Shown: piece by piece, positions 23,390 through 26,411 of the stretch
Layout of the letters: each line of letters begins with the position of its first letter
How positions within the stretch are numbered: position 1 is the first letter of the stretch
From: Candidatus Levybacteria bacterium RIFCSPHIGHO2_01_FULL_40_16
GTDB taxonomy: Bacteria > Patescibacteriota > Microgenomatia > Levybacterales > UBA12049
Length of the DNA: 34,094 nucleotides
Direction: 5' to 3'
Assembly (NCBI GenBank): GCA_001783805.1
Contig: MFNS01000006.1
Coordinates: 1 to 34,094 of the forward strand
Translations under genes and position numbers: made by a program
Notes under the pieces: generated by a model
Seen by the model: only the letters and a program-made list of their open reading frames with translations
What the model was told of the DNA's origin: nothing
The model's database searches: none

Positions 23390-23409
23390 GAACCGACTTT
23401 GACTATTGA

Positions 23410-23431
23410 CCCCGCCTTGGCGGGGTTTTTT
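23410..23431 (+). terminator. Intrinsic terminator after tuf
   Basis: A GC-only stem, CCCCGC (23410-23415) with GCGGGG (23420-23425), loop CTTG, then T6 (23426-23431). It lies 20 nt after the tuf stop and only 19 nt before the rpsJ start. rpsJ therefore depends on readthrough or on a promoter I cannot identify. Confidence 0.9.
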
Positions 23432-23993: not shown

Positions 23994-24599
23994 TTAGGGG
24001 GATTTGAGTTTCCAGGGAAGAATGGGTTTTTTATTCTGATCTTTATTTATCACAAGTCCAACAAATCCGGTTTGTCTGAAAGTTGCGATGCCGTCTTCTG
24101 TAATTTCTTCTTTCCATGATCCATCTTCTATGTCACCATCAATTTTGAATGTATATTTTTTATCTCCATCCTCATGTTTCTCAGGACCTCTAAATGGAAG
24201 TTTCGAAGTGACCTTCATCAGTGCGGATCTCAAAAAAATAAATGTTTGCTTAGCTTGATCTTCATAACCATCTGTCTGTCCATGTCCCCCATAAGACATT
24301 ATCCATGCAGGAACCCCTTTATAGTATATAGTTGTTGTGCCGGGTGCCCTGAAATATCCCGAATACTCATCTTCTAAACGCCAATCTTCCCAGCCTTTAT
24401 AATCTCTTCGGTCTTGATCTGTCATTTTTTCATCTGGATAAGGCCATTGCAGCCTTTTGTATCCCGGTCTTCGAGGAGCAACTTCTGCGCCATCTGCTGC
24501 CCAAGTCTTTCCATTTGCTATCACAATAAAGTTAGAAAGCTTTTTCAGCCATTCATTTTTTGCTTCAAGCTCAACTTGATTTCCATTCTCTAAAGCCAT
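23994..24599 (-). CDS. DUF5680-like protein
   Basis: A 201-aa soluble protein of unknown biochemical function. The core, KLSNFIVIANGKTWAA, a rich Pro/Arg segment, WRLEDEYSGYFRAPGTTTIYY and GVPAWIMSYGGHG, follows the DUF5680 pattern, in which an aromatic DxYfG..f.G.EvVyy stretch leads to PvW.MnY.G. The C-terminal part adds about 70 residues. I chose the ATG at 24599 over one 12 codons upstream because a TATAAT box ends exactly 6 nt before it and would overlap the longer version. It lies on the strand opposite the ribosomal genes, between rpsJ and rplC. Confidence 0.72.
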   Translation of the reverse strand: MALENGNQVELEAKNEWLKKLSNFIVIANGKTWAADGAEVAPRRPGYKRLQWPYPDEKMTDQDRRDYKGWEDWRLEDEYSGYFRAPGTTTIYYKGVPAWIMSYGGHGQTDGYEDQAKQTFIFLRSALMKVTSKLPFRGPEKHEDGDKKYTFKIDGDIEDGSWKEEITEDGIATFRQTGFVGLVINKDQNKKPILPWKLKSP

Positions 24600-24605
24600 G
24601 CGGTA

Positions 24606-24635
24606 ATTATATATTAGATATCTATTGCATTTCAA
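24606..24635 (-). promoter_or_regulatory. Promoter of the DUF5680-like gene
   Basis: On the minus strand TTGAAA (24635-24630), 18 nt and TATAAT (24611-24606) end 6 nt before the ATG at 24599. A leaderless mRNA is predicted. It overlaps the oppositely directed rplC promoter. Confidence 0.65.
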
Positions 24636-24653
24636 GCTCTACCAGTATATAAT
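24625..24653 (+). promoter_or_regulatory. Promoter of the rplC ribosomal protein operon
   Basis: TTGCAT (24625-24630), 17 nt and perfect TATAAT (24648-24653). Transcription should start near 24660, giving a leader of about 104 nt before the rplC ATG. Confidence 0.6.
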
Positions 24654-24693
24654 TACCCTTGAAAGTCATGTTTAACCGATTGGAGGTAAATAA

Positions 24694-24756
24694 GGCTGCA
24701 TAAATAGGAAGTTTTTGGGATTTTTTCCTGAAGCGACTGTGTGCAGTCGCTTTTTT
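24694..24756 (+). promoter_or_regulatory. Candidate attenuator in the rplC operon leader
   Basis: A textbook terminator, GCGACTG (24733-24739), loop TGTG, CAGTCGC (24744-24750) and T6 (24751-24756), ends 7 nt before the rplC ATG. The upstream sequence GGCTGCA (24694-24700) can pair with TGCAGTC (24742-24748), with one G-T pair, which would break the terminator. This is the usual form of a transcription attenuator. It could instead simply terminate upstream readthrough. Confidence 0.6.
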
Positions 24757-24763
24757 GGTTTTT

Positions 24764-25564
24764 ATGAACTCAATACTGGCAAAAAAAATAGAACAAGGAC
24801 AAAAATTCTTAGAAGATGGCACACGCATTCCGGTTACGAAATTAGCCGTAGAAGGAAATATTGTGGTTGCAATCAAAACGCAAGCTCGGGATAAATATTC
24901 CGCAGTTCAGCTCGGATTTGACAAAAGAATAAAAGCCAGACCTCAAAAAAGCAACAAGTCAATTTATTCATTTTTAAGAGAAGTAAGGATGGCAGACACA
25001 GACACAATGCCTGCTGTTGGAGACGTAATTAAGGCAAGCGAAATTTTCAAACCCGGCGATGTTATCAATGTTACCGGAATATCCAAGGGGAAAGGCTATG
25101 CCGGCGGAGTCAAAAGACATCATTTTAAAGGCGGACCCAGGACACACGGACAATCAGACAGAGAAAGAGCGCCGGGAGCTATCGGATCAACTACTACTCC
25201 GGGAAGAGTTTACCGAGGAAAAAGAATGGCAGGACACATGGGTCAGGATCAGGTTACGGTTAAAAACTTACAAGTTGTATATGTTGATGATAAGAATATT
25301 TTAGCTCAAGGATTAGTCCCGGGCGGAAGAAATACCCTGTTAATGGTTAAGAAAACAGGCGTTAATGAAAAATTTGTTCCACTCTTCAGTGCTTCAGAAA
25401 AACTCAGTGATTCAGAGGTTGCAAGAGAAGCACCAGCTAAAAAGACTGCAACCACAGAAACGCAGAATGCGAATGAAGCACTGAAAGCAGAAGCTCCCAC
25501 GTCAAACGTGGCTAGCGCGAAAGTTGAAGAAAAGAAAGTTGAGGTAAAAGCAAGTGCCAGCTAA
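24764..25564 (+). CDS. rplC: 50S ribosomal protein L3
   Basis: uL3, an early assembly protein near the peptidyl transferase centre. The conserved loop GVKRHHFKGGPRTHGQSDRERAPGAIG and GKRMAGHMG are present, including the Gln that is methylated in other bacteria. The core ends near residue 210. A roughly 50-residue tail rich in Ala, Glu, Lys and Thr follows, making 266 aa. I start at the ATG at 24764; the TTG at 24755 lies inside the terminator T-tract. It is the first gene of the long ribosomal operon and overlaps rplD by 11 nt. Confidence 0.97.
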   Translation: MNSILAKKIEQGQKFLEDGTRIPVTKLAVEGNIVVAIKTQARDKYSAVQLGFDKRIKARPQKSNKSIYSFLREVRMADTDTMPAVGDVIKASEIFKPGDVINVTGISKGKGYAGGVKRHHFKGGPRTHGQSDRERAPGAIGSTTTPGRVYRGKRMAGHMGQDQVTVKNLQVVYVDDKNILAQGLVPGGRNTLLMVKKTGVNEKFVPLFSASEKLSDSEVAREAPAKKTATTETQNANEALKAEAPTSNVASAKVEEKKVEVKASAS

Positions 25565-26411
25565 AAAATCAAAACCAAAACTTCCCACTTCGCTAAAGCT
25601 TCGGCGGGCAAGCAAAACAAAAAAATTAGTAAAAAAAGTTGTGGCTAAGAAAGTTGCTGTGAAAAAAGCTGTTAAAGCGGCTAAGATTAAGGCTGTAGCG
25701 AAATCAAAAACCACGGGCAAAGGTCGAGTTGCAGCTAAGATTCCTGTTTCAAAACCAACCAAAACTGTTAGTTTAAATGCTGCAGTTTTGGATACAGAAG
25801 GAAAAATAGCCGGACGTGTTGAGCTTCCTGCGGAAATATTCGGCGCGAAAATAAATGATACACTCGTGTCCCAAGCAGCTCGCGTTTATCTGGCAAATCA
25901 AAGACAAGGAACATCAAAAACACAAGACAGAGGGGAAGTTGACAGGACAACCAAGAAAGTCTGGCAGCAAAAGGGAACAGGTAGGGCACGCCATGGTTCA
26001 AGAAGAGCACCTATCTTTGTCGGCGGAGGACGCGTTTTCGGTCCGACTCCCCGCGATCTGTCTCTAAGCATTTCAAAGAAAATGAAAACCCTCGCACTTT
26101 TTTCAGCCCTTTCCTCAAAACTCAAAGACAGTGAAATAAAAATCATCAAAGGATTAGAAACAATTTCGCCTAAAACAAAATTAATGGCGCAAGTTTTGAA
26201 AAATCTGGAAATTCAGGACAAGAAAATTTTATTAATAATGCCAAAGGTGGGAAAAGAAACAGAAAGTGTTTATAGAGCGGCAAGAAATATTGCGGGCGTA
26301 GAAATTATGAGCGCCAATTCCCTGAACGCTTACAAGGTTTTAGATAATGCAATGATTTTATTAATGAGAGCATCAATAGACACTCTTAAGGATACGTTTA
26401 TTAAAAAATAA
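25554..26411 (+). CDS. rplD: 50S ribosomal protein L4 with long basic N-terminal extension
   Basis: uL4 lines the exit tunnel and in E. coli represses its own operon. The L4 core starts at about residue 70 and contains QRQGTSKTQDRGEV, WQQKGTGRARHGSRRAPIFVGGG and the C-terminal Rossmann-like half. The first 70 residues are a Lys/Ala-rich extension, so the protein is 285 aa rather than about 205. The GTG at 25554 is supported by GAGGT (25541-25545) 8 nt upstream; a later in-frame GTG at 25641 lacks such a site. A palindromic repeat lies inside the extension (residues 10-21). Confidence 0.95.
   Translation: MPAKKSKPKLPTSLKLRRASKTKKLVKKVVAKKVAVKKAVKAAKIKAVAKSKTTGKGRVAAKIPVSKPTKTVSLNAAVLDTEGKIAGRVELPAEIFGAKINDTLVSQAARVYLANQRQGTSKTQDRGEVDRTTKKVWQQKGTGRARHGSRRAPIFVGGGRVFGPTPRDLSLSISKKMKTLALFSALSSKLKDSEIKIIKGLETISPKTKLMAQVLKNLEIQDKKILLIMPKVGKETESVYRAARNIAGVEIMSANSLNAYKVLDNAMILLMRASIDTLKDTFIKK
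25581..25617. repeat. Palindromic repeat inside the rplD coding region
   Basis: Shares the 17-nt core CTTCGCTAAAGCTTCGG (25588-25604) with the fusA leader copy, plus similar flanks. It is read in frame as part of the L4 extension. Confidence 0.75.

Follow-up and report, generated by a model that had tools for sequence, protein, structure and literature searches.

A candidate ribosome-mediated transcription attenuator in front of the ribosomal protein L3 operon of Candidatus Levybacteria

We consider it likely that the rplC operon (rplC and the genes after it) is controlled by a trp-like, ribosome-mediated transcription attenuator that senses translation. The window, the whole stretch of 34,094 nucleotides that was analyzed, comes from a 0.9-Mb genome, of which it forms contig 6; the named close relatives belong to Candidatus Levybacteria (Microgenomates, Patescibacteria). 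Between a DUF5680 gene and rplC lie a promoter and a leader, the latter carrying a short open reading frame (ORF), two mutually exclusive folds and an intrinsic terminator; these elements and their conservation are read from the sequence. An attenuator at this position is very likely real: the promoter, the terminator and the strand complementary to the terminator are all conserved in relatives. The features are listed below by window position.

23994-24599, minus strand: DUF5680-domain gene, inserted between rpsJ and rplC
24625-24653, plus strand: promoter TTGCAT-N17-TATAAT (TTGCAT 24625-24630, 17-nt spacer, TATAAT 24648-24653)
24664-24697, plus strand: predicted hairpin 1:2 (protector), AGUC/GGCU, UGUUUA/UAAAUA, CC/GG, which would sequester the 5' part of strand A
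24668-24703, plus strand: leader ORF, MFNRLEVNKAA*, starting 14 nt after the -10 box and ending on strand A
24682-24687, plus strand: GGAGGT, inside the leader ORF and just 5' of strand A
24694-24702, plus strand: antiterminator strand A, GGCTGCATA, overlapping the final codons of the leader ORF and its stop
24730-24756, plus strand: intrinsic terminator (GCGACTG 24733-24739, loop TGTG 24740-24743, CAGTCGC 24744-24750, T6 24751-24756)
24740-24748, plus strand: strand A', TGTGCAGTC, the loop and 3' arm of the terminator, which pairs with A
24764-25564, plus strand: rplC (ribosomal protein L3; Pfam PF00297), first gene of the operon presumed to be controlled

Conserved elements between rpsJ and rplC

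The genes are arranged in the order tuf, rpsJ, the minus-strand DUF5680 gene, rplC, rplD and rplW. The leader is therefore located between rpsJ and rplC, unlike the leader of the E. coli S10 type, which precedes rpsJ. The first-pass annotation had suggested that control moved to this position because rpsJ had become separated. This explanation is not supported, since in three relatives (L009, L011, L112) rpsJ is adjacent to rplC, ending 178-204 nt before it with the leader between; in the window, the DUF5680 insert lies upstream of the leader promoter, and the leader is common to the family. With several relatives having the leader between adjacent rpsJ and rplC, the leader is not a by-product of their separation. 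Extra DNA or genes between rpsJ and rplC, upstream of the leader promoter, occur in relatives too. Between tuf and rpsJ there is also a strong terminator (window 23408-23427), which ends 23 nt before the rpsJ start and leaves little space for an rpsJ promoter. Both L4 (285 aa; window 25554-26411), in which about 88 residues precede the Pfam L4 domain, and L3, which has a long C-terminal tail beyond its conserved domain, look lineage-specific in these parts.

The promoter described in the first-pass annotation was read directly at 24625-24653 and is conserved before rplC in relatives. Of the 48 relatives that have a -10 box, 36 carry TTGCA 17 nt 5' of TATAAT, and 37 carry it somewhere within the 26 nt upstream, where 1.5 would be expected. 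An automated scan listed the terminator and passed over the promoter, because TTGCAT matches the -35 consensus, which is that of E. coli, at only 3 of 6 positions.

The terminator, likewise present as described earlier, comprises a perfect, GC-rich stem of 7 bp and a T6 run, followed by 7 nt and the rplC ATG (24764), in front of which there is no Shine-Dalgarno (SD) sequence. Regions upstream of rplC were gathered from the family, the order and the class, and a terminator-like hairpin was present in 82 of these 83. Across 30 sequences of the main subtype, all 150 cells of the terminator core were paired (100%), and compensatory changes were seen among them. The complementarity of GGCTGCA (24694-24700) to the right side of the terminator had also been noticed; the pairing proved longer than stated, with nine pairs between A and A'. 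In 33 leaders, the A:A' duplex had a mean energy of -10.6 kcal/mol, compared with -3.8 for shuffled strands, and none of 200 shuffles was as low. In the main subtype A:A' was paired in 91% of cells versus 26-52% when one side was slid, part of this agreement among relatives being shared descent; pairs that changed together include UGCA/UGCA in the window and UACA/UGUA in L004. Outside the main subtype, A:A' pairing was weaker. The 97-nt leader as a whole folded with a z of -2.9. Comparison of the rplC leaders of relatives, in which both stems are conserved, thus supports the earlier proposal of two exclusive folds that attenuate transcription of the rplC operon.

A leader reading frame and its anti-SD-complementary motif

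The leader also holds an ORF of 11 amino acids that the first-pass annotation lacked: ATG TTT AAC CGA TTG GAG GTA AAT AAG GCT GCA TAA. With the -10 box and the A-strand stop as independent anchors, the first ATG downstream of the box opens a frame that runs to that stop without interruption in 34 of 35 leaders, where one third would be expected (p about 1e-15, relatedness ignored). When the GGAGG motif served as the anchor and the 5' segment was shuffled, such an ORF was present in 43 of 46 leaders versus 9.8 expected. ORF lengths differ by whole codons, and two ORFs, of 22-23 codons, carry long in-frame insertions (L122, L123); the stop is TAA or TAG, or TGA in L022 and L027. The ATG is mostly 12-16 nt past the -10 box, which probably gives a 5' UTR of no more than 5-10 nt, too short for a standard SD sequence; the ORF has no normal SD sequence, and in the window it is probably nearly leaderless. 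The peptide sequence is not conserved, and the ORFs share no run of a single residue. As neither a run nor a shared codon that could mark regulatory codons of one amino acid was found in the leader ORFs, an attenuator of the amino-acid type is not indicated, while the general mechanism may still apply.

GGAGGT, inside the ORF, is complementary to the 16S 3' end of the family, ...GGATCACCTCCTTT (the anti-SD). This anti-SD was found in 40 of 61 family genomes, with its context checked in six; the 16S gene of the window's own genome was searched for and is missing from the assembly. The match to the anti-SD extends to 10 nt in L139, L147 and L148, which carry GGAGGTGATC. In most leaders the motif is read as xGG AGG T (Glu-Val), and in L007, L028, L138 and L141 as GGA GGT; since it is kept in more than one phase, selection acts on the nucleotides and not on the peptide. 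The motif cannot act as an SD sequence for the leader ATG, which is upstream of it, and no conserved start codon follows it in relatives. GGAGGT probably holds a ribosome or a 30S subunit over strand A through the anti-SD. In distant Microgenomates families, ATGGAGGT stands right at the ORF start (L157, L158, L212, L219, L224).

Two other candidates for this region were rejected. A UUG-started mini-ORF after GGAGGT (TTG GCT ACA TAG) was discarded because its first codon varies among TTG, GTA, TTA, GAA and AAG in relatives. A conserved arrest peptide was given up as the main idea because both the phase of GGAGGT and the peptides differ.

A proposed switch and its alternatives

The effect of a ribosome on the folds was examined by moving a ribosome footprint along the ORF in silico, by ViennaRNA masking. 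In this calculation, an equilibrium approximation and not co-transcriptional kinetics, the window terminator formed with a probability of 0.63 in the free leader; the footprint lowered this to 0.01 at codons 1-3 and 0.00 at codon 4, and raised it to 0.98-1.00 at all later positions. Most of the 33 leaders followed the same course, with values near 0 for a ribosome anywhere on codons 1-4 and near 1 once it stood between codon 5 and the stop; no switching was seen in L154, L113, L117 and L111. Strand A, at the end of the ORF, lies under the footprint of a ribosome there, and antiterminator and terminator are mutually exclusive in folding. As for hairpin 1:2, which in the window folds between the ORF start and strand A, its start:end duplex was matched by none of 200 shuffles in the main subtype, and it was not significant outside that subtype (17 of 200). 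RNAalifold found no common hairpin in the ORF region, because the register differs between groups.

From these folds we infer how the leader would work: that the ORF is translated, in which direction the switch turns, what GGAGGT does and which signal is sensed. Transcription would begin some 7 nt upstream of the leader ORF. In case a ribosome is on codons 1-4, hairpin 1:2 would be opened and A left free to pair with A', whereupon the terminator would be blocked and the operon read. In case the ribosome has reached codon 5 or any position up to the stop, A would be covered, the terminator would form and transcription would end before rplC. In a leader free of ribosomes, hairpin 1:2 would compete with A:A' and the outcome would be mixed, in keeping with the terminator probability of about 0.6 in the window. 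Slow initiation or early elongation, which would reflect too little ribosome capacity, would thus leave A free and the operon read, and quick translation would close it. The signal is likely to be translation itself, by way of the speed of initiation and early elongation or the supply of ribosomes, and not one amino acid, since the ORFs share no amino-acid run and their peptide is not conserved. A broader reading, which we put forward tentatively and hold to be somewhat less than evenly probable, is a thermostat of translation capacity: the leader ORF and its anti-SD-binding motif would gauge ribosome availability, set transcription of the L3-L4 operon and replace ribosomal protein autoregulation in Microgenomates.

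The first-pass annotation had named L4 or L3 as the possible ligand. An autogenous leader, on which L4 (or L3) binds and favors the terminator, would agree with both proteins being encoded in the operon, with termination caused by L4 in the E. coli S10 leader (PMC10931766) and with the assignment of L4 to archaeal rplC leaders (PMC7247131). We nevertheless find it unlikely. An Rfam search of the leader returned nothing at the gathering score and no credible ribosomal protein leader below it (the best, at a relaxed threshold, reached 16.5 bits, where the cut-off is 47.4), and protein binding would not explain why a reading frame is conserved. Moreover, the short ORF, the anti-SD-complementary motif and the pairing strands already account for the conserved nucleotides, which turns attention from a protein ligand to the ribosome as the effector. 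The ribosome could also act without translating, if a free 30S subunit on GGAGGT masked A and excess subunits shut the operon, the ORF being secondary. The complementarity of up to 10 nt, the retention of the same nucleotides in two ORF phases and the position just 5' of A, well suited to masking, fit such a direct sensor. It is rather improbable all the same, given that the position at SD distance holds no conserved start codon, that the upstream in-frame ATG is conserved and that three relatives from the order (L022, L023, L027) have the leader ORF without GGAGGT.

Rare codons are overrepresented at the early positions of the leader ORFs (CGA 6.7% versus 0.3% in window genes, ATA 9.6% versus 2.0%), as are arginine codons (14% versus 5%), and the window ORF has CGA as its codon 4, inside the antitermination zone. 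These values would suit an attenuator specific for one amino acid, e.g. arginine, in which scarce charged tRNA stalls the ribosome on early codons. However, the codon counts are inflated by related sequences, no regulatory codon is repeated and many relatives have no arginine there (e.g. MAKQTEV, MVIQTEV, MVKTAEV), which makes this account very unlikely. The terminator could, lastly, be an ordinary one that only limits readthrough from tuf-rpsJ, the rest being coincidental, as terminators before rplC are widespread in the class, including in other leaders. Since a conserved promoter lies upstream on the same strand, such a terminator would stop the operon's own transcript, and the complementary strand occurs far above chance; we regard this explanation as highly improbable. 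Translation-sensing attenuation by a ribosome on the leader ORF is the reading that we prefer.

Relation to known systems and distribution

The usual explanation for feedback on bacterial ribosome synthesis is that ribosomal proteins bind their own mRNA. If the translation-sensing mechanism is true, the product's activity would feed back directly on a ribosomal protein operon: ribosomes would report their own activity through a leader peptide, and the cell may set ribosome number by how well the existing ribosomes work. The setting is a large uncultured radiation in which ribosome control is largely unstudied. No precedent for leader-peptide control of a ribosomal protein operon was found in the open-licence literature. 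The attenuation mechanism itself is known; what would be new is its application to a ribosomal protein operon without an amino-acid signal.

The rplC leader shares with trp/his-type attenuation a short promoter-proximal ORF, the mutual exclusion of 1:2, 2:3 and terminator, a strand 2 covered by the ribosome at the stop and an intrinsic terminator before the first structural gene. It differs in having no codon run for one amino acid, a ribosomal protein operon as the target, GGAGGT inside the ORF, a nearly leaderless start and a strand A that pairs with the terminator loop and 3' arm. The E. coli S10 leader, which acts through L4 (PMC10931766), also attenuates transcription of an operon carrying rplC and rplD, while the rplC leader comes after rpsJ and before rplC, is about 100 nt long and contains a conserved ORF. 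In a survey of new ribosomal protein leaders, an rplC leader is listed in Archaeoglobi only (PMC7247131). The L10(L12)4 attenuator of B. subtilis rplJL is likewise an anti-antiterminator/antiterminator/terminator switch before ribosomal protein genes; its effector is a ribosomal protein complex (PMC10931766), whereas a ribosome on the ORF is proposed here. In ermC and the E. coli topAI upstream ORF, too, ribosome position on a short ORF reports translation (PMC2965389, PMC12121999), but there the trigger is a ribosome-targeting drug or a global slowdown, and the genes under control are those for resistance or toxins, not a ribosomal protein operon. Control in ermC is at the level of translation, in contrast to the transcription attenuation proposed for rplC.

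A covariance model of the leader had one match in its own genome and no further copies. In 374 genomes of the class, all 23 strong matches (E below 1e-5) were directly before rplC, and they fell in the window genome's family and one neighboring family of its order. The family also includes a second subtype, which combines GGAGGT with a GCCTA strand and has GGTAGCC/GGCTACC as its terminator. A third, from the same family (L019, L033, L133, L134, L142), has GATTGATTAAAAA(A)GCCT..., a GGCCACCCC..TTTAGAGGGG hairpin and a terminator of the GGTAGCC/GGCTATC type, with no GGAGGT or clear leader ORF. Leaders of rplC elsewhere in the phylum look different: in a phylum-wide survey, the terminator was absent at most of the non-Microgenomates rplC loci examined and the ATGGAGG motif at all of them.

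Three further observations were made on the way. The spacing of promoter, ATG and GGAGGT has one other match in the window's own genome (G000:C1:345901-345935, minus strand; locus L232). In the Patescibacteria family f57 (L256, L261), about 170 nt upstream of rplC, there is a long conserved and apparently structured leader with no terminator, TTTATTTAAGCCCGTCAA...GATTGGCGGAAACAAATAAATTCATA..., possibly a separate ribosomal protein leader. Family f9 (L211, L249, L251) has a conserved GGTGGGACACCTGAA...AAGGAGTCCTGCNTTTTTG element before rplC, in which a GGACxxx/GTCC stem is followed by a T-run, a different attenuator-like leader.
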